Positions 5,667-24,560 of a stretch of 35,122 nt of DNA are shown here, one piece after another. Location: NCBI GenBank assembly GCA_028280735.1, contig JANQLH010000278.1:1-35122 (forward strand), written 5' to 3'. Source of the DNA: SAR324 cluster bacterium. GTDB taxonomy: Bacteria > SAR324 > XYD2-FULL-50-16. Positions within the stretch are counted from its first letter, which is position 1. Every line of letters starts with the position of its first letter. The position numbers and the translations under genes were made by a program. A model generated the notes under the pieces. That model saw only the letters and a program-made list of their open reading frames with translations. It had not been told where the DNA came from and did not search any database.

Positions 5667-7097
5667 ATGGCCGAGCAGAAAACCACATTATCGATCGATT
5701 TTTTAGCGGAAAGCGTTGCCAGAAAGTACACAATGCCCGGTAACAGCGATAAAAAAAACATCGGGCTGGAGCTGGAACTTTTTCCTATGAAAGTAGATGA
5801 AACGAGCCGCTACAAGGTTGCTGACATAATGAATGAGCAACTGAACGGGACCTATGATCTGCTTTATACAAATTCCCTATGTCGCTGCAGCATGTTTGAT
5901 CCCGATAAAAAACTGGATGTACCTCGCTTAAATTCAGCGGTCGGGGGTATCGTCACCTTTGAACCGGGGGGGCAGATTGAGTACAGTTCAGCCGTCGATA
6001 CGGACCTGAACAAGGTAATCAATGAACTGATCATGCACATGTCGGAGCTGGAGAATATTTTAGCAGCCAGGGGATACAGGTTTTTTTTTGGTGCTCTCAA
6101 TCCCTGGCAATCGGTTGATGAAGTCGGCCTGAAAATGAGAAAGCCGCGCTACCTGGCAATGGATCGTTTTTTTAAAAACATCGGTCCCTATGGCCGGCAA
6201 ATGATGAGACTTTCAGGTTCAATTCAGGTGAACCTGGATTTCGGAGGCCCGGAGACGACTAAAAAACGATGGTTGGTTACCAATTTATTGTCTCCTGTTT
6301 TTTGTGCCATTTTCGGTAATTCGCCTTTTCTGGCAGGAAAAGCAACCGGTAAGAGAAGCTACCGTACTATAATCTGGCAAAACCTGGATAAAACCAGGAC
6401 GGGCTTCCCGCACCTTAGAATTGGTCAACCGGGCATGGTTTCAATGATTGAACAATACCTGGGGTTTGCCCTCAATGCCAGTGTCTTCACCCTTCCTGAT
6501 GAAAGCGGTTGCCTGGTTTATCGTCAAAATGATATTTCCTTTAAATCCTGGTTGGAAAACGGTTATAACGGCTTTTACCCATCTATTGAAGACTGGGAGG
6601 CACATCTCACAACCTTGTTTCCGGATGTCAGGGCCAAAGGCTTTTTGGAATGCCGTTTTATTGATGGACAATCCAAACCTTGCTGGGCTGTTCCGGCGGT
6701 TATTGCAACGGCCCTGATTTATGATGAAGTAGCGATAGATAAAACAATCTCCCTGCTTTCTTCTTACCAAGGGGAGCTGGAAAAAATGGCTCTTGCGGCC
6801 GCATCAGATGGTGTCGGGGCTTTCCCGGATTTATGCAGGGAGGTTTATGAAATTGCCCTGAACACAGGTCAATATCAACTCGATTCCGATTTATTGGGAT
6901 ATTGCGAACGTTTTTTTCGACATTTTACACTTCAAGAGAAGAATCCGGCTGATGATCTGCTATCCATCAATAACGGATTAATATTTGCAGCAGACCAATA
7001 CAGAGAATATGAGGACCAGCTTTTTGATATTATTCAACCCCCAATGTATGTGGCTGCAAAAAATGCAAATGAGATAGCCTGGGGATGCAAGTGCTGA
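5667..7097 (+). CDS. Glutamate-cysteine ligase, GCS2 family
   Basis: A 476-residue ATP-dependent carboxylate-amine ligase of the GCS2 (plant/proteobacterial GshA, EgtA-like) family. The nucleotide/metal-binding opening GLELELFP is at residues 33-40. FEPGGQIEYSSA, around residue 97, is the family hallmark for glutamate and Mg binding. MRLSGSIQVNLDF and the LECRFIDGQ region follow. The expected reaction joins glutamate and cysteine to gamma-glutamylcysteine, a thiol buffer or glutathione precursor. No glutathione synthetase is present in the window. It heads a plus-strand run with a selenocysteine peroxiredoxin, which fits a thiol redox role. The ribosome-binding site before ATG 5667 is weak. 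Confidence 0.85.
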   Translation: MAEQKTTLSIDFLAESVARKYTMPGNSDKKNIGLELELFPMKVDETSRYKVADIMNEQLNGTYDLLYTNSLCRCSMFDPDKKLDVPRLNSAVGGIVTFEPGGQIEYSSAVDTDLNKVINELIMHMSELENILAARGYRFFFGALNPWQSVDEVGLKMRKPRYLAMDRFFKNIGPYGRQMMRLSGSIQVNLDFGGPETTKKRWLVTNLLSPVFCAIFGNSPFLAGKATGKRSYRTIIWQNLDKTRTGFPHLRIGQPGMVSMIEQYLGFALNASVFTLPDESGCLVYRQNDISFKSWLENGYNGFYPSIEDWEAHLTTLFPDVRAKGFLECRFIDGQSKPCWAVPAVIATALIYDEVAIDKTISLLSSYQGELEKMALAAASDGVGAFPDLCREVYEIALNTGQYQLDSDLLGYCERFFRHFTLQEKNPADDLLSINNGLIFAADQYREYEDQLFDIIQPPMYVAAKNANEIAWGCKC

Positions 7098-7133: not shown

Positions 7134-7838
7134 ATGAACAATAAAAGAATCAAGCAATTTGTAATTCTAGCTGTGCTGATAGCTTTGGTCGTTCTATTTT
7201 TTATCTTTGACTTAAAGCAGTATCTGACACTTGAGTATATGAAAAGCCAACAACAAGCGTTTGCTGATTATTATAGTGAAAATACAGTTTTGACCATTGC
7301 GATTTATTTTATCATCTATGTTATTACAACCTCACTATCATTGCCGGGAGCCGCTGTTCTAACACTGGTTGGCGGTGCTCTTTTCGGTTTGGTCACCGGT
7401 ACCATTGTTGTTTCTTTTGCCAGTACCCTGGGAGCAACCCTGGCATTTCTAGTATCCAGGTTTTTACTTGGAGATTATGTACAAAGTAAATTTAGCGACA
7501 AGTTAAAAGTAATCAACGAAGGAATTGAAAAAGAAGGAGAGTTTTATCTCTTTACCTTGCGGTTGGTGCCCTTGTTTCCTTTTTTCCTCATCAACCTGAT
7601 CATGGGACTCACCCCAATTAGAACAATCAAGTTCTTTGTTGTAAGTCAGTTAGGGATGTTACCCGGAACCATCGTCTATGTATTTGCAGGAACTCAATTG
7701 GCTCAAGTTGATTCCCTGAAAGGAATCCTCTCCCCGGGGCTAATCGGCGCGTTCGTTTTACTGGGACTTTTCCCTTTACTTGCTAAAAAGACACTGGAAC
7801 TTATCAAACGGCGAAAAGTAAGCCCGACTTCATCCTAA
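7134..7838 (+). CDS. TVP38/TMEM64 (VTT domain) membrane protein
   Basis: A 234-residue inner-membrane protein. It has an N-terminal membrane segment (residues 8-26), a second around 52-70, and the VTT/SNARE-associated core with SLPGAAVLTLVGGALFG, STLGATLAFLVSRFLLGDY and the re-entrant-type motif RLVPLFPFFLINLIMG, ending with another membrane helix and a basic tail. The family has been linked to lipid scrambling or transport; the substrate is unknown here. A GAGGAG site precedes the ATG. It follows the GCS gene by 36 bases and is probably in the same operon. Confidence 0.88.
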   Translation: MNNKRIKQFVILAVLIALVVLFFIFDLKQYLTLEYMKSQQQAFADYYSENTVLTIAIYFIIYVITTSLSLPGAAVLTLVGGALFGLVTGTIVVSFASTLGATLAFLVSRFLLGDYVQSKFSDKLKVINEGIEKEGEFYLFTLRLVPLFPFFLINLIMGLTPIRTIKFFVVSQLGMLPGTIVYVFAGTQLAQVDSLKGILSPGLIGAFVLLGLFPLLAKKTLELIKRRKVSPTSS

Positions 7839-7868: not shown

Positions 7869-8654
7869 ATGAATAAGTCGTTATTGACAATGGGATTCAT
7901 TGCGATACTCGGATTTCTGACTAGTCCGGATATATTGGGTTTTGATCAGAGCCACAACGCATTTGATAAAATCCTGAAACAATATGTTGTGGTAAATGGT
8001 CCTCAAAGCGCTGTGCGGTATGGGGAAATCAAGAAGAATCCGGCCCAGCTGAACAGCTATATTACGGAGCTGGAAGCTGTCACGGCTGATGAATTTTCAG
8101 GTTGGAGTGAACCACAGCAGATTGCCTTTTTGATTAATGCGTACAATGCCTTGACAATACAACTGATTCTTACCAAATATCCTGATCTGAAATCCATTAA
8201 GGATCTAGGCGGCTTTTTCACCGGTCCCTGGAAAGTTAAATTTTTCACCTTGTTTGGTGAGAAACATCATCTGGATTACATTGAGCATGAGCTTTTGCGG
8301 GTTAACTATACGGAACCGCGAATCCACTTTGCGCTTGTATGCGCATCAATCGGTTGTCCGCCGTTGATCACGGAAGCATACACGGGAGATCGCCTTGATG
8401 AACAGTTGAATCGATCGATGATTTCGTTTCTAAGGGACCCTGAACGAAACAGGTATGACAAAGCAGACAAAACCCTGTATCTATCATCGATCTTTAAATG
8501 GTTCTCCGAAGACTTTACCAAGGTAAACTCCTCGGTTGAGGCGTTTGTTGCTCCCTGGATTACCGATGACAAAACAGAGCAGGATTTAATTACCGGTAAA
8601 AAGGTGGACTTGGAGTACCTGGATTATGACTGGTCATTAAACAGATCGAATTAA
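7869..8654 (+). CDS. DUF547 domain protein, exported
   Basis: A 261-residue protein with an N-terminal hydrophobic signal segment (residues 4-22) and the DUF547 domain. Conserved blocks are QIAFLINAYNALTIQLIL, GGFFTGPWKVK, HLDYIEHELLR, HFALVCASIGCPPL (with the invariant Cys pair region) and LSSIFKWFSEDF. Function of the family is unknown; it often sits beside redox and membrane genes. GGAGAGG precedes the ATG, and the gene is 30 bases after the VTT gene and 25 before the selenoprotein gene, so it is part of the same operon. Confidence 0.87.
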   Translation: MNKSLLTMGFIAILGFLTSPDILGFDQSHNAFDKILKQYVVVNGPQSAVRYGEIKKNPAQLNSYITELEAVTADEFSGWSEPQQIAFLINAYNALTIQLILTKYPDLKSIKDLGGFFTGPWKVKFFTLFGEKHHLDYIEHELLRVNYTEPRIHFALVCASIGCPPLITEAYTGDRLDEQLNRSMISFLRDPERNRYDKADKTLYLSSIFKWFSEDFTKVNSSVEAFVAPWITDDKTEQDLITGKKVDLEYLDYDWSLNRSN

Positions 8655-8679: not shown

Positions 8680-9330
8680 ATGAACAAAGATATACCGGAT
8701 ATTGGAGAAAAGATTCCGGATTTTATTGCCCGGGATTCCAATGATAACCAGTTTTCATTGTCGGAGGCGTTGAACGATACGACATATTTGATGCTGGTCT
8801 TTTATCGCGGACACTGGTGACCTTTCTGTGTCGGCCAGTTGGCTGAAATAAGCAAACACCAGGCAACACTGAACGGTCTGCAAACCAAAGTAGTCGCCAT
8901 TTCTGTAGATGCTCCCAAGCAATCCCGATCATTCAAGGCGGAAAAGTCATTCCTGTTCACCGTCTTGTGCGATACTGACAGAAAGGTAATAAAGCAGTTC
9001 AATCTGCTGAATCCATATGAGCATGCGGGAATCGCCTATCCTGCCATATTTATCATCAAGCCGGGCAGAATCATCGGCTATCGTTCGCTTGATAAAACAG
9101 CCAGCAGGGTAGACCTTACCGAAGTTTTAACTTTTTTGAAGACAGTCAATACCAATCCCGAATATACCCTTCGCTCAGAATCGAAGAAAAACGTGATTAT
9201 TCCCAAAGGCGGCGATCTCCGGCAGTTGGCTAAGAACCTGTTTGTTCGGGGAACCCTTGAGGATTGGAAACACTACATCGGATACCCCCTGGTTGTTATC
9301 AAACTGCTTTTCCGTAAAAAAAACCTATGA
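8680..9330 (+). CDS. Selenocysteine-containing AhpC/TSA-type peroxiredoxin (UGA = Sec47)
   Basis: The frame from ATG 8680 is interrupted only by TGA at 8818-8820 and then stays open to 9330, giving 216 residues. The context is VFYRGHW-U-PFCVGQLAE. In cysteine homologues of this AhpC/TSA-like family the U position is the peroxidatic Cys of an RGxWCPxC motif, so UGA most likely encodes selenocysteine in a UxxC redox site with Cys50. The thioredoxin fold is intact on both sides (PDFIARDSNDNQFSLSEAL before; KVVAISVDAPKQSRSF and YPAIFIIKPGRIIGYR after). A SECIS-like hairpin follows the UGA. Expected role: thiol-dependent peroxide reduction. The stop overlaps the next ATG by 4 bases. A gene caller without recoding would report only the C-terminal part from about 8839. 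Confidence 0.88.
8831..8846 (+). promoter_or_regulatory. Bacterial SECIS-like hairpin for Sec47
   Basis: TCGGCC (8831-8836) pairs with GGCTGA (8841-8846), including one G-U pair, and closes an AGTT loop at 8837-8840. The stem begins 11 bases after the UGA and the loop G is 18 bases after it. Bacterial SECIS elements have a small apical loop with a G among its first two bases, within a few tens of bases of the UGA. The fold was done by eye. Confidence 0.7.
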
Positions 9331-10085
9331 AGAAGATCTTAGCTCTAAGCGCGGTGTTGTTAGTGGTTTTAATGCTTTACGCCGGGTGGATAAAACTCCG
9401 CAGTATGGATTTTGATGATGGGGGATTACCATTGGCCATCCGTTGGGAAGGGTTCTACCACAACATGAACTTAAGAGATGTCGGCTTCAGTATCAATCAA
9501 TGCCTGGGGGAAGACCTTCTTACGGAAACGGTTCTTCTGCGCTCAGCCGGCTGGTTTTCGGGCTGGGACTGTGACAAGGTCGGTAATCCGGATGTGATCT
9601 ACTCACTTAACTACGCTCCAAGCCGGGAAGAACGCTATTTTTGTCAATCGGGAAGTGGTAAGACCATTGGCCGCTATTTTAATCCCGACATTCAATTCAA
9701 AGATCTGGAATTCGTCAAAAACTGGCAGGACCCCAATATTCGAAATGCGGCTTGCCGGGTTCTCGAAGACATGTTTCTTTCCATTCAGGAAGACAAAATG
9801 ATCCTGATTCATTGCGATGCAGGCAGGGACAGGACAGGAGCCTATTCAGCCTTACTGGCTGCCATGGCGGCAGAAGCTGATAACCGCCTTGATCAAAGAA
9901 TGTTAGATGCGATCGAATGTGACTATAGAAAAACCAAGTCTCTTTCAAAAGAGAAACACGGACGCATGGAACAATTCATTAAATCCCTGCGGGATACAGG
10001 AGGTGTTGCCTCGTTTATCCAGCAATCCTGCTCCATCGAACCTCGGATCATCTCCCGTGTAGCTTCAAAATTGATAGCTCAATAA
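9327..10085 (+). CDS. Tyrosine/dual-specificity phosphatase-like protein, membrane-anchored
   Basis: A 252-residue protein with an N-terminal hydrophobic anchor (residues 3-20) and a cysteine-phosphatase domain. The P-loop HCxxGRDRTG is HCDAGRDRTG, with catalytic Cys163 and Arg169 (CX5R). The early NLRDVGFSINQCLG and LLRSAGW match the N-terminal blocks of bacterial Y_phosphatase3/DSP-like enzymes. The anchor suggests a periplasmic or membrane-associated catalytic domain; substrate may be a phosphoprotein or phosphoinositide-like compound. Its ATG overlaps the selenoprotein stop (ATGA), so the two are translationally coupled. It is the last gene of the operon. Confidence 0.85.
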   Translation: MKKILALSAVLLVVLMLYAGWIKLRSMDFDDGGLPLAIRWEGFYHNMNLRDVGFSINQCLGEDLLTETVLLRSAGWFSGWDCDKVGNPDVIYSLNYAPSREERYFCQSGSGKTIGRYFNPDIQFKDLEFVKNWQDPNIRNAACRVLEDMFLSIQEDKMILIHCDAGRDRTGAYSALLAAMAAEADNRLDQRMLDAIECDYRKTKSLSKEKHGRMEQFIKSLRDTGGVASFIQQSCSIEPRIISRVASKLIAQ

Positions 10086-10103: not shown

Positions 10104-11285
10104 TTATGCCAACAGCTCTTTTGCTTTTTGCAGTCTGGCGGTAATATTTATCTTTTGAGGGCACCGTTCGGATGCCCGCCTGAGATCCTCATGTTCAAAA
10201 GCCCTGTGGGTTGCTGCAAGTGATTGGTAATTGCTTTTTGCACGTTTCGGGTCCCCATAGTTTTCATAGTACATCAGAAATCGCAGCTGGTCCGCTATCC
10301 TGGTATTTCCTCTTATTGCCGATTCGCAGATGTGAGAACAACCGTTGCAAGCCAGGTGATCAGTATAAGCAGCCAGTTGGTTCAGTTGGTGGAATTCGCT
10401 GGCGCTTAGTTTTGTTGCGGTTCTTGCTGCCGTTGCGTTTTCAACGACCTGCTGGACATTTTGCATTTCAGAGACAATGGTATCGATTCGCTCATCTTCC
10501 CAAACGGACTTTAATTTGGCTTGGGCTAACGAGAAGTTTTTGGAACGAAACTTTACCACGGATTCTTCATCGGAGGAAACCCCACCCATTGTTTTCATGG
10601 CGATTAAACCGATACCTGCGCGTTTACAATCATCAATCGCCTTATTGAGCTCTCGATCCCCGTATCTGCGGAAATTGTAACGAAACATAATAGCGTCGAT
10701 GCCACCAACCTGCACCGCCTTTTTCATTGAACCAACCACGTCGCCGCTATGGATGGAATACCCAAAAAAGCGGGTTTTTCCCGATTTTTTTAATGAATCG
10801 GCAACTTTTAAATAATCCTGTGATAAATCGCCCGGTCCGCTAATTCCGTGAATTAGGTACAGATCCAAATAGTCTGTCTTTAATTGACGAAGGCATTTGT
10901 CGGCATCTTCCTTAAAACCATTAGCTGTCCAGGCACCGGACTTGGATGTGATCCAGAGCTTCTTTCTGTTTCCGATCTGGCTCATGAAATTTGCAATTGC
11001 TTTGTGCGATGAACCCCATCCGTAGCTGATGGCGGTATCGATCCAGTAAACTCCCTCTTTAAAGCAGCGATGCATGATCTTGTCATATGTTGTATCCATA
11101 GACTGGGCCGTACCCAGGTGGAGGATCGGCAGGGAATCCCCTGTTGAACCGAATTTTCTATGCGGAATTTTTCCGGCAGCGAAAGCGGGAGTCGATAAGT
11201 TACTTGTCGATGCCAGACCCAAACCGGCAGCAGATATCATTGCACCCTTGATAAAACTACGCCTTTTTATATTTTTATTTTCCAT
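10104..11285 (-). CDS. Tat-exported aldo/keto reductase with C-terminal Fe-S motif
   Basis: A 393-residue protein with a twin-arginine signal (KRRSFIKGA, then a hydrophobic stretch to about residue 36). The aldo/keto reductase TIM barrel follows: KFGSTGDSLPILHLGTA, catalytic-type Asp/Tyr in IDTAISYGWG, Lys in LWITSKSG and His in LYLIHGIS. Near the C-terminus, CNGCSHIC plus a later ERCPQKI gives CxxCxxxC...CP, a [4Fe-4S] binding pattern found in the Fe-S subgroup of this family. It is probably folded in the cytosol and exported. GGAGT precedes the ATG. It ends the DUF6599-DUF362-polyferredoxin series, 72 bases downstream. Substrate unknown. Confidence 0.87.
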   Translation of the reverse strand: MENKNIKRRSFIKGAMISAAGLGLASTSNLSTPAFAAGKIPHRKFGSTGDSLPILHLGTAQSMDTTYDKIMHRCFKEGVYWIDTAISYGWGSSHKAIANFMSQIGNRKKLWITSKSGAWTANGFKEDADKCLRQLKTDYLDLYLIHGISGPGDLSQDYLKVADSLKKSGKTRFFGYSIHSGDVVGSMKKAVQVGGIDAIMFRYNFRRYGDRELNKAIDDCKRAGIGLIAMKTMGGVSSDEESVVKFRSKNFSLAQAKLKSVWEDERIDTIVSEMQNVQQVVENATAARTATKLSASEFHQLNQLAAYTDHLACNGCSHICESAIRGNTRIADQLRFLMYYENYGDPKRAKSNYQSLAATHRAFEHEDLRRASERCPQKINITARLQKAKELLA

Positions 11286-11357
11286 AGGACTCCACAGAAA
11301 GGAAATGTTGATGTAACAACCAGTTTATTGAAAAAAATCAGTTAAATCAGTATTATA

Positions 11358-12956
11358 CTATCCTTCCTCCTGATAGCGATGTTTTAACAACAATTTTCGA
11401 TATTGGGACCGGCTTTCGCCCACAGCTGTAACGTACACAGCAGCCTGATCCGTAACCGGGCATTCTGTCTGACAAATGCCGCATCCGATGCAAAGATCGG
11501 GAACAATAAAAGGTTTGTTTAAAGTAATCAGCTCGCCAAAAACGTCTTTTGTCTCCACATCCTTGGTTTGTATAGCCTTGGGTGCAACCGGACAAACTTC
11601 TTCACAAACCACGCAAGGGATTTCATTAGCCCAGGGTAAACAGCGATTAGTGTCCATAAAAGCGGTGCCTAATCGAATTGGTCCGTTGTTCTCGAAGGGA
11701 CCTTTTCCCATTTTTTCCGCAACGGAGATTTTCCGGATAGCACCTGTAGGACAGGCTTCGGAGCAAAGGGTACATTTTTGTTGGCAATGCCCGATGTTAA
11801 ATTTCATGACAGGCGTCCACAACGCTTCAAATCCTCCTTCCAGAAAACCGGCTGGTTGCAGGACATTGGTGGGACAGATATTGAGACACTGATCACATTT
11901 TATACACCTGGCGAGAAACTCGTTTTCCTCAACAGAACCCGGCGGTCTGATCATCAGCGGGGAATAAGCGTCGTTCGAGGTCTTTCCGTTAATTTTAATC
12001 AACGGATAGCTTATCAAACCAAGCACACCTGCAAACACCAGCTTACGCTTTGAATAGTCCGGAGCCGGTCTGACCTGGTTTTGGTCCAGGTTGAACATCG
12101 AATAGCGAATTGCATCTTCTGGGCAATCATCCAGACAATTCAAGCAAGCCAGGCATTCACTGAGGCGTAGTTTTCCTTGTGGATCACATGCTCCCTCACA
12201 CCTGGTTAGGCAAAGGTTGCAATCCGTGCATTTTTCAATATCCCGATTGATTCTCAACAGAGAAAACCTGCTGAGAAATCCCAGCAGGGCACCGGTTGGG
12301 CAAAGAACCCGGCAAAAAAAACGCGGATGCCAGATGTTGACAGCAACAAAACCGATAAACAAAACACCGATCCAGAACGATCCTAAAAAAATTCTTTCGG
12401 TGGTACCCGGTTTGAAGGTTAACAATTCGATAACTTTGTCCGGGGCAAAAACACCCAGCTTTCCGATCAACATATCCCAGGTTGGGATTAGCGTCGTGGA
12501 AAATGATCGATAAAGGATTGCAAGCGGGTCCAGCCAGCCAATCTGCAAAGCTCCGAAGGTAGCAGAAATCAGAAATATAATGAGCAATGAATACTTAATG
12601 AATTGGCGGGACCTGTAAGTATTCTTCTTTCGCAAAAGCTCAGAGTTTTTATTATTGAAAAGCCAGCCTGTGAATTGGTGCAAGGTTCCCAACGGGCAGA
12701 TCCAGTTGCAGAAAACACGACCAAAAAGGAAGGTTAATCCAAGAATAATCAGTGACCAGCCCAGAAAGCCATAAACAAAACCTGTTGAAAGCAATGTTGA
12801 AACCAGGAGCAGGGGATTAATCTCCATTAACCTGGAAACCGGGTAGCCAAAAATTCTGGAAGTCCAGGCTGCATATAAGGATAAAATGAAAAAAACGAAA
12901 AAAAGAACCTGACTTAGAATGCGGACATTGGTTAAACGCAGCAGGGAATATTTCAT
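11358..12956 (-). CDS. NapH/MauN-like membrane polyferredoxin
   Basis: A 532-residue integral membrane iron-sulfur protein. The N-terminal half has several membrane helices and the NapH/CcoG-type motifs GRVFCNWICPLG and FFCRVLCPTGALLGF. Then come ferredoxin-type [4Fe-4S] motifs: CTDCNLCLTRC, CLACLNCLDDCP, CIKCDQCLNICP, CTLCSEACP, CVVCEEVCP and CIGCGICQTECP. Such proteins pass electrons between the quinone pool and periplasmic reductases. It starts 4 bases inside the end of the DUF362 gene (ATGA overlap). The likely partners are the Tat-exported DUF362 protein and aldo/keto reductase of the same operon; electron donor and acceptor are not shown by the sequence. Confidence 0.9.
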   Translation of the reverse strand: MKYSLLRLTNVRILSQVLFFVFFILSLYAAWTSRIFGYPVSRLMEINPLLLVSTLLSTGFVYGFLGWSLIILGLTFLFGRVFCNWICPLGTLHQFTGWLFNNKNSELLRKKNTYRSRQFIKYSLLIIFLISATFGALQIGWLDPLAILYRSFSTTLIPTWDMLIGKLGVFAPDKVIELLTFKPGTTERIFLGSFWIGVLFIGFVAVNIWHPRFFCRVLCPTGALLGFLSRFSLLRINRDIEKCTDCNLCLTRCEGACDPQGKLRLSECLACLNCLDDCPEDAIRYSMFNLDQNQVRPAPDYSKRKLVFAGVLGLISYPLIKINGKTSNDAYSPLMIRPPGSVEENEFLARCIKCDQCLNICPTNVLQPAGFLEGGFEALWTPVMKFNIGHCQQKCTLCSEACPTGAIRKISVAEKMGKGPFENNGPIRLGTAFMDTNRCLPWANEIPCVVCEEVCPVAPKAIQTKDVETKDVFGELITLNKPFIVPDLCIGCGICQTECPVTDQAAVYVTAVGESRSQYRKLLLKHRYQEEG

Positions 12957-14035
12957 GTTAGCTCCCTGATTCTGCCACTGGGATCGATTTTACCAGCTCC
13001 TTTCATTTCGGATTTCATCAAGTATTCCGGTAGCTCTCTGCCTCTTTCCAAAAGATTGGTTACAGCCCAGGCATCCATCGCTACCTGATCGGTGCCTGCA
13101 ATGATGGTATGTTTCATCACAACATCACTGGGGATACCCCCGGTTGGACCGTTACGCATCAATACCCGCATGCCGTCCAAAATGGTGAGGGTAGGCCGGA
13201 TCATAATGGCCAGATCGGAAATGATTTCGTGAATATCCTGATGGAACTGATTTCGTTTGCCTCCCAGGAGGCCGTACCAGTTTTTAATCCCCAGGGAGGC
13301 ACTACATAAATTATGATCTTTTACCGGTGCCAGTCCGATAACCTTTGTGACATTTCGAAAAGGGCGATGAAAAAAACTCCAGTTTTTTATCAGGACGGCG
13401 TCCGGTGTATGGAGGTTGCGGAACGCATTACCATCCGGGAGATACACCCGGGCTCCGGCATTCTCGACAGCCCGTTTAATACCACTTTTTTCAAAACTGT
13501 CCGCCGGGGATTCGATTGGATTGTCGGCCACTTTTACTTCTGCTGCCCGACATTCCAGGTAAAGCATGGTTATCAATTCGGAGATGATTTCCGGATGTGT
13601 GGTTGCCCCCAGGTTTGGAGAACGATCAAATGCAGCATTGGGTTTTACCAATACCACATCCCCCGGTTTGATAAACCGTTTCAATCCTCCAATAGCATCC
13701 AGCGCTTTTCTCAGTGTCACCCCGGTTTCTCCTTGTCTGCCTATGCCAACATCGGGAAAGTTGTTATCCGATTCGACTCTAAAATCCCGGAGGGTATAAA
13801 TCTCCGGTTTGGGTAGGCTTCTCAGTCCCGTTTTGTCTTTTAAAGAAAACTTGTAATCTTCCGGGGCAAAGGACAAATAACCCAATCCTGCCGTCAATCC
13901 AGCCATGGCAGTTGCCCTGGTGATGAATTGACGCCGGCTCAACGGTTTTTTTTCTTTTGAATTAGTTTTCGAATCCGGATTCATTGGCGAGAATTGCAGA
14001 GGTTCGTTGTATATATTGTTGGGCGATGTCGACAC
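12953..14035 (-). CDS. DUF362 domain protein with Tat signal
   Basis: A 360-residue protein. A twin-arginine motif (LSRRQFITRA) and hydrophobic stretch near residues 34-55 mark it as Tat-exported. The DUF362 domain follows: GDVVLVKPNAAFDRSPNLGATTHPEIISELI, VKVADNPI, KNWYGLLGGKRNQFHQDIHEIISDLA and LTILDGMRVLMRNGPTGG. DUF362 proteins usually accompany ferredoxin-type modules. The annotated start is GTG 14035 with a GGGGTGG site upstream; ATG 13984 is equally possible and would cut the overlap with the DUF6599 gene from 74 to 23 bases. Function beyond the redox context is unknown. Confidence 0.87.
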   Translation of the reverse strand: MSTSPNNIYNEPLQFSPMNPDSKTNSKEKKPLSRRQFITRATAMAGLTAGLGYLSFAPEDYKFSLKDKTGLRSLPKPEIYTLRDFRVESDNNFPDVGIGRQGETGVTLRKALDAIGGLKRFIKPGDVVLVKPNAAFDRSPNLGATTHPEIISELITMLYLECRAAEVKVADNPIESPADSFEKSGIKRAVENAGARVYLPDGNAFRNLHTPDAVLIKNWSFFHRPFRNVTKVIGLAPVKDHNLCSASLGIKNWYGLLGGKRNQFHQDIHEIISDLAIMIRPTLTILDGMRVLMRNGPTGGIPSDVVMKHTIIAGTDQVAMDAWAVTNLLERGRELPEYLMKSEMKGAGKIDPSGRIRELT

Positions 14036-15065
14036 TTTTCATTTTTTCCACCCCAAAAATCACCGATCCTTCCTGACGAATCACAAACCAGGTGTTCAGA
14101 TACAAATGTTGCATCACTGCGAAATTGGGAGTGCTTCTCACTGTTTTATAATCATATTGTTGCTCTTGAACCAACCTGGAAAACAAGACAGGCTCTTGCT
14201 TATCTTCGGCAAGCCTGTGGATAAAAACCCGTCCCGATGTGCCAGGGTCAGGAGCACCAAACCAAAAATCCCTGGCAAAATCAAACTGAAATACATTGTT
14301 GCTTTGATAGCTTATAAAAGCAGGATTGATCTTCAGCATTTCTGCAAGGATATGGTACTCAAAGGGTATATCGGATTCTGCCTGCGGTAATGAAACCAGG
14401 AGTTTCATTACGTTTTCCGCTTTGCTGCTAATTACCGGCGATTCGCTGTTACCAATTAAACGGGCGAAAAACCTGCCTTTTCTGCCAACGGCTCCGGCCG
14501 TATTGACAATATAAACAACGCTTTCATGGCTTTTTACCCTTGCTTCCGGTGATACATATTCAGCAAAAACCCCCAGGCTGCCTTTTAAATCACCTTGGTC
14601 GTAAAGCTCGATACCAATTTCGTTGGCTCCTTGGGAATCGGCAATACGGATAAACTGCATTTTTTGGAATCCCTGTTTAAGGAATTTGTCCGCCTCACCG
14701 TTAATTTTCTCAAACAAGTTATCGGCATTAAATTCTCTTAGAGAGCTGCTTATCTGCCAGGAGTCGTTGAGAATATCCCGGGTCAACAGTCCGGTGTCAG
14801 GAGCCGGGGCTAATTGTTGGTTCTGCGTCTCGGACCATCGCTGTAGTGGCGCATGGTATATTTCAGAGGTAATGATGCCCGTATTCAGGTATTTGTCCGG
14901 CAGATCCCTGGATTCGGGATCAAAATTGTTCCGCTGCAAGACCAACCAGCTGATCACCAGGATCAGACCGGTGATGATTATTGATGAGATAATCAGTTCA
15001 AACGGTGGGATGTTTGACCTGTTAACGCGACGTTTACGCCGGTTAAATAGGGCTTCGGATTTCAA
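13962..15065 (-). CDS. DUF6599-type membrane-anchored protein
   Basis: A 367-residue protein with one N-terminal membrane anchor (about residues 23-44, after a basic RRKRRVNR stretch) and a periplasmic domain. Recognisable family features are NLFEKINGEADKFLKQGF, IGIELYDQGDLKGSLGVFAEY and GRKGRFFARLIG. The assignment to DUF6599 is from memory of this pattern. The start is TTG 15065 with AGGA about 10 bases upstream. It heads the four-gene minus-strand redox series and overlaps the next gene, so it is probably an accessory subunit of the same membrane complex. No catalytic residues can be named. Confidence 0.72.
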   Translation of the reverse strand: MKSEALFNRRKRRVNRSNIPPFELIISSIIITGLILVISWLVLQRNNFDPESRDLPDKYLNTGIITSEIYHAPLQRWSETQNQQLAPAPDTGLLTRDILNDSWQISSSLREFNADNLFEKINGEADKFLKQGFQKMQFIRIADSQGANEIGIELYDQGDLKGSLGVFAEYVSPEARVKSHESVVYIVNTAGAVGRKGRFFARLIGNSESPVISSKAENVMKLLVSLPQAESDIPFEYHILAEMLKINPAFISYQSNNVFQFDFARDFWFGAPDPGTSGRVFIHRLAEDKQEPVLFSRLVQEQQYDYKTVRSTPNFAVMQHLYLNTWFVIRQEGSVIFGVEKMKSVDIAQQYIQRTSAILANESGFEN

Positions 15066-24083: not shown

Positions 24084-24560
24084 ATGTCAATTGTGGAAGG
24101 AAAAGCAGCACCGGATTTCACACTACATGACCAAAACGATAAGGAGGTATCACTGTCTCAATTTAAAGGAAATATCGTTGTGGTCTATTTTTACCCCAAA
24201 GACAATACACCCGGTTGAACCAAGGAAGCCATTGGATTTCGTGAGTTACACGAAACATTTAAGGCATCCGGGGCTGTCATTCTGGGGATATCTCCTGACA
24301 GTACAGCATCCCACACTAAGTTTATTGAAAAGCAGGATTTAAACTTTACCCTGCCCTCAGATCCGGAGAAGAAGGTGATGTCCGAATATGGCGCCTTTGG
24401 AGAAAAGATTATGTACGGAAAAAAAACCGTTGGAGTCATTCGCTCAACGGTGTTGGTCGATGAGGAAGGAAAGGTATTTAAGCATTGGAAACGAGTTCAG
24501 AAAGCTGCCGACCATCCGGCCAAAGTCCTGGAAGTTATTCAGAAAGATATGAAAAAATAA
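24084..24560 (+). CDS. bcp: Selenocysteine-containing Bcp-type peroxiredoxin (UGA = Sec45)
   Basis: ATG 24084 has a GAGGAG site 7 bases upstream. The frame runs to TAA 24560 (158 residues) with one internal TGA at 24216-24218. The context FYPKDNTPG-U-TKEAIGFRELH matches the Bcp/PrxQ active site YPKDxTPGCTxExxxFRD, so UGA replaces the peroxidatic Cys45. The second Bcp cysteine (position 50) is Ile here, so this is a 1-Sec form needing an external thiol. The rest is a full Bcp: VVVYFYP before, VILGISPDSTASHTKFI, FTLPSDPEKKVMSEYGAFGEK and VIRSTVLVDEEGKV after. A SECIS-like hairpin follows the UGA. Role: thiol-dependent reduction of peroxides. Confidence 0.92.
24237..24255 (+). promoter_or_regulatory. 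Bacterial SECIS-like hairpin for Sec45
   Basis: TTTCGTG (24237-24243) pairs perfectly with CACGAAA (24249-24255) around an AGTTA loop. The loop G (24245) is 27 bases after the UGA, in the range expected for bacterial SECIS elements. The AGTT loop start is the same as in the Sec47 gene at 8831-8846. Confidence 0.78.

Follow-up and report, generated by a model that had tools for sequence, protein, structure and literature searches.

The window, that is the whole stretch of 35,122 nucleotides from a SAR324 cluster bacterium analysed here, carries on its forward strand at 8680-9330 a gene of 216 residues that probably encodes a selenocysteine (Sec)-recoded, peroxiredoxin (Prx)-like UxxC thiol:disulfide oxidoreductase, within a clade of its own marked by a C-terminal extension. 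In the proposed mechanism, SelB and a Sec-tRNA(UCA) would read the in-frame UGA at 8818-8820 as Sec, directed by a bacterial SECIS (bSECIS) hairpin at 8831-8846. Attack by the U47 selenolate on a disulfide, or else on a sulfenic acid or peroxide, would be followed by resolution through C50 to a U47-C50 selenenylsulfide, from which some cellular thiol system would regenerate the enzyme. Both this chemistry and the reductant are predictions made from the sequence.

Reading frame and product of the gene

The frame contains a single internal TGA, codon 47 of 216, lying in FYRGHW-U-PFC at the N-terminal end of the U47-P-F-C50 motif. The rest of it is open up to its own stop, which is also a TGA (9328-9330) and overlaps the ATG of the following gene. 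As the preliminary description of this DNA had anticipated, ORF calling with translation table 11 returns a truncated gene, 8839-9330 alone, with a TTG start and 163 residues. The annotation is corrected here, since such calling drops 53 N-terminal residues and with them the active site.

When read through, the product matches PF00578 (AhpC-TSA, thioredoxin fold) over residues 8-134 with an E-value of 1.3e-26 and 93.3 bits against a cut-off of 26, and the Redoxin profile is matched as well. Hence, the earlier observation of one in-frame TGA with an intact fold on both sides holds. The best NCBIfam match is NF040769 (SelL-related, 5.4e-14), but its 52.2 bits lie below the cut-off of 120, and the orthologues described below (36-54 bits) fall under the same cut-off.

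Conservation of the TGA and selenocysteine machinery

Whole-genome search of relatives gave three full-length orthologues with 50-52% protein identity, two in species of the same genus (G001 and G002) and one in the same family (G009). The preliminary description had named an ordinary sense codon in close relatives, together with reads exposing the TGA as a sequencing error, as one observation that would count against recoding. Instead, all three orthologues have one internal TGA each, at the same codon, and FYRGHWUPFC is unchanged. On either side of the TGA, dN in the orthologue comparisons is 0.23-0.54 while dS is saturated or above 1.5; such a low dN with mostly saturated synonymous sites indicates protein-level selection both upstream and downstream of the codon. 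A full-length orthologue is found in 4 of the 52 genomes of the phylum, the class-wide and phylum-wide searches resolving to the identical 52 genomes and the identical four full-length orthologues. A looser cut-off adds one partial match alone, in G023, and no relative was found among viral contigs. Cysteine homologues were found at 12 gammaproteobacterial loci with RGHWCPFC at the place of the Sec, which supplies the Cys counterpart that a selenoprotein is expected to have.

The search for selA, selB, selC and selD that had been proposed as a check was positive. Indeed, the genome of origin contains a tRNA-Sec (63.7 bits over its cut-off, anticodon UCA) and selA (530 bits). Its selB is present as two contig-edge pieces, C15 (model positions 48-580) and C218 (model positions 1-50), and selD likewise appears split over two contig edges, C133 (G000:C133:1-726) and C233 (G000:C233:21821-22003). 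The latter, an N-terminal SelD piece, reads CGUAAK with an in-frame TGA of its own, so that Sec decoding in this genome is indicated a second time, and independently. With a draft of 88% completeness and 5.8% contamination, machinery and gene might in principle stem from different organisms, though close relatives share the gene.

A bSECIS-like hairpin downstream of the TGA

The hairpin, UCGGCC-AGUU-GGCUGA (8831..8846, forward strand), has a stem of 6 bp (arms 8831-8836 and 8841-8846) and a loop of 4 nt (8837-8840) with G at the second place followed by U. Its energy, with the extended helix (8827-8850), is -9.5 kcal/mol. It starts 10 bases past the TGA, and not 11 as first given, and the loop is reached after 16 nt; every coordinate of the preliminary description agrees to one base or better. 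In the bacterial SECIS model the loop has 3-9 nt with a G in its first two places, the stem 4-16 bp, the distance from UGA to loop is 16-37 nt and the minimum free energy is -7.5 or lower (PMC13188914). The hairpins of the window, G001 and G002 fall within all of these limits, so that the SECIS-like character noticed at the outset stands. In G009 the hairpin has one A.C mismatch and, at -3.5 kcal/mol, misses the energy limit of -7.5.

At pair 17-26 of the hairpin alignment two species have G-C, while one has A-U, both sides having changed. Furthermore, the SelD hairpin of the same genome, UCAGUCC-GGUC-GGACUGA, has the same layout with its stem equally far from its TGA. Random synonymous recoding matched the stability of the hairpin in only 2.5, 2.7, 2.0 and 0.5% of draws in the four species, each of which was tested. 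This is a stronger test than codon identity, which by itself is weak for the hairpin region (3/7 codons against 7/63, p = 0.055). An Rfam scan of the window matched no family, which is unsurprising because bacterial SECIS elements are too varied.

Taken at face value, a draft-assembly contig and a truncated table-11 ORF would fit a pseudogene or a base-call error, in which the TGA would either truly end translation or be an artefact, the gene being dead or shortened. This is very improbable given that the same TGA recurs in three relatives at mostly saturated synonymous distances, that both halves of the gene are under selection, that the hairpin is kept and that the Sec machinery is present. 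An equally slight chance goes to the TGA being read as another residue, through general recoding to Trp or chance readthrough. The frame is indeed open when the TGA is read, but TGA terminates other genes of the window and 8680-9330 itself, the homologues have Cys or Thr and never Trp at the place of U47, and a Sec-specific tRNA and SelB exist. We infer that Sec is inserted here, and recoding of the TGA at 8818-8820 appears nearly certain from these sequence comparisons, the machinery, the orthologues, the hairpin and the Cys homologues all speaking for it.

Active site and fold

In a profile alignment with solved peroxiredoxins (A. pernix PrxQ, S. tokodaii Prx and M. tuberculosis AhpE), U47 falls on the Ser/Thr of TxxC(P) while C50 (codon 8827-8829) falls on the peroxidatic Cys. 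The same register is obtained in an alignment of 40 relatives, where U47 stands at the Thr of PxxxTxxC(P) and C50 at the peroxidatic place. It is obtained again with a second selenoprotein gene of the window, a PrxQ/Bcp with a TPGU motif (24084-24560, forward strand, 158 residues, TGA 24216-24218) and its Sec at the true peroxidatic place: this Sec meets C50. The product of 24084-24560 matches PF00578 at 5e-41 and PRK09437 at 145.6 bits against a cut-off of 140, and a hairpin, UUUCGUG-AGUUA-CACGAAA, lies about 25 nt past its TGA. The preliminary description had placed the TGA of 8680-9330 exactly at the peroxidatic Cys, which is three residues off. The full-frame alignment with AhpC/TSA homologues that it called for bears out the fold and the RGHWCPFC cysteine homologues, but the peroxidatic placement fails.

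The signature PxxxTxxC(P) is here R43-xxx-U47-xx-C50, in which the Pro and the Thr are absent and the Cys is present, UxxC having replaced TxxC. The catalytic Arg, which a typical peroxiredoxin carries in the strand following its active site, is absent as well, P121 (codon 9040-9042, in YPAIF) standing at that column. We take column 121 to hold the catalytic Arg in peroxiredoxins and the cis-Pro in thioredoxins. It is Arg in 8/8 TxxC/TxxU rows and Pro in 12/12 UxxC/UxxU and 19/20 CxxC rows, that is in 31 of the 32 C/UxxC/U proteins. Since R43, U47 and P121 mean the loss of three of the four signature residues, with thioredoxin-like ones in place, the protein is better named a Prx-like thiol:disulfide oxidoreductase. 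Hence, the description as a UxxC protein of the AhpC/TSA family is right as to fold and motif, whereas the claim that Sec takes the place of the peroxidatic Cys in a peroxiredoxin does not hold, R43 and P121 replacing the catalytic Pro and Arg. In such an enzyme C50 would be the resolving partner of U47.

The AlphaFold model of the window protein, built from an alignment of this protein and ten Cys homologues with the three orthologues left out, has a pLDDT of 76.9, most of the core being at about 85-93. The C-terminal extension (about residues 161-216, 9160..9327) reaches only about 40-60; it is absent from the Cys homologues, and RGxxxDWKH is kept in it in the four orthologues.

The main rival to an oxidoreductase is a Sec-containing peroxidase, whose chief task would be the reduction of H2O2 or alkyl hydroperoxides, with either U47 or C50 attacking and the other resolving. 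The fold is that of a peroxiredoxin and the best solved matches of the model include Bcp4, AhpC2, PrxQ-type proteins and AhpE; moreover, C50 aligns with the peroxidatic Cys, and rapid reaction of a selenolate with peroxide is conceivable. Against this, the PxxxTxxC...Arg site has R43, U47 and P121 where its Pro, Thr and Arg would be, and the genome already has an AhpC beside AhpF (C205) in addition to the TPGU PrxQ. On balance a peroxidase seems unlikely, and the thiol:disulfide oxidoreductase is the likely function.

Relation to known Prx-like selenoproteins

Prx-like UxxC selenoproteins were reported in the Sargasso Sea survey of 2005 (PMC1088965). The GOS survey of 2008 listed, as Prx-like 1 (pfam00578, UxxC), 225 selenoproteins and 2,740 Cys homologues (PMC2398784 Table 2), and the disulfide oxidoreductase activity of the PF00578 UxxC family is a predicted one (PMC13188914 Table 1). 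The product of 8680-9330 shares with the PF00578 UxxC/UxxU oxidoreductases the fold, the U in first position, a bSECIS just downstream and abundant Cys homologues. Judged on sequence, it is best read as within the definition of the known Prx-like UxxC family, as a new member in a small clade with a C-terminal extension. In a tree of 40 relatives, the representative WP_010940744.1 not among them, the three orthologues join the window protein in one group (97/99 support) that stands apart from the phylum's remaining UxxC proteins and its UxxU pair. The clade further differs by its extension of about 55 residues and an adjoining glutamate-cysteine ligase gene.

SelL and SelL-related proteins (NF040769, UxxU) have in common with it the Prx-like core and Sec at the Thr place, but the window gene is UxxC and scores 52 bits, below 120, and the UxxU proteins of the phylum stand elsewhere in the tree. 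Sec-containing PrxQ/Bcp proteins (TxxU), such as the one at 24084-24560, share the AhpC/TSA fold; in these the Sec is the peroxidatic residue and both Thr and Arg are retained, whereas in 8680-9330 the Sec takes the Thr place and a Pro stands for the Arg. With ResA/TlpA proteins the common features are the C/UxxC motif and the Pro in the cis-Pro loop column. However, sequence and model of the product are closer to AhpC/TSA, and no N-terminal signal or anchor is apparent in it. The gene leaves the understanding of selenoproteins unchanged.

Prx-like selenoproteins are numerous in the phylum, UxxU members occurring along with UxxC and TxxU ones. Two loci of the phylum (L032 and L035) encode UxxU Prx-like proteins, YRGYWUPKU and YRGPWUPKU, with a SelL-like double-Sec motif. 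Genomes with TxxU, UxxC and UxxU side by side are useful for following shifts of Sec between the Thr and Cys places within a single active site.

Gene neighbourhood and a plausible link to thiol metabolism

The selenoprotein gene lies in a tightly spaced run on the forward strand. The run begins with a glutamate-cysteine ligase of family 2 (EgtA/plant-type relative, 5667..7097), a VTT-domain membrane protein (7134..7838) and a DUF547 protein (7869..8654, 25 bp upstream of the selenoprotein). Downstream, a tyrosine-phosphatase-like protein with HCxxGRDRT (9327..10085) has a start that overlaps the selenoprotein stop. The successive gaps of 36, 30, 25 and -4 nt give the run an operon-like look.

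This arrangement is partly kept in the relatives. In G002 the order ligase, selenoprotein, phosphatase is conserved, the ligase being adjacent to the orthologue and the phosphatase directly downstream. Upstream of the G009 orthologue lie a fusion of VTT with a disulphide reductase and, directly adjoining the gene, DUF547, and in G001 a distant VTT fusion alone remains, with a rhodanese-rubrerythrin gene downstream. Hence, of the thiol-redox operon claimed earlier, the ligase in a tightly spaced run stands, while the neighbourhood is only partly kept and the VTT, DUF547 and phosphatase genes are not established thiol genes. A link of the locus to thiol metabolism is plausible, without being fixed across relatives.

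Glutathione synthetase was sought in the 88% complete genome and not found, and for this reason gamma-glutamylcysteine may be the cellular thiol. A further reading, which we regard as doubtful, is that the clade constitutes a distinct selenoenzyme subfamily whose extension and linked ligase would reflect a dedicated reductant, possibly gamma-glutamylcysteine and not glutathione.

In relatives (L066:1478-3685 and L068:13574-15715) the VTT domain is fused to a pyridine-nucleotide disulphide oxidoreductase, and in the window the VTT part stands by itself. A further Sec codon was considered in the TGA terminating the ligase gene (7095-7097) and rejected: the frame beyond it consists of the VTT gene's leader and start, and the ligase orthologue of G002 has an unrelated 13-residue tail.

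Elsewhere in the genome of origin, a TlpA/ResA-like candidate selenoprotein with WTTTUISC is encoded on the reverse strand of another contig (G000:C38:1740-2105). On the reverse strand of the window, 10104-15065 holds genes for an aldo/keto reductase whose beginning, RRSFIKGA, is TAT-like, a polyferredoxin membrane protein, a DUF362 and a DUF6599 protein, a run that looks like an iron-sulfur electron-transfer cluster.
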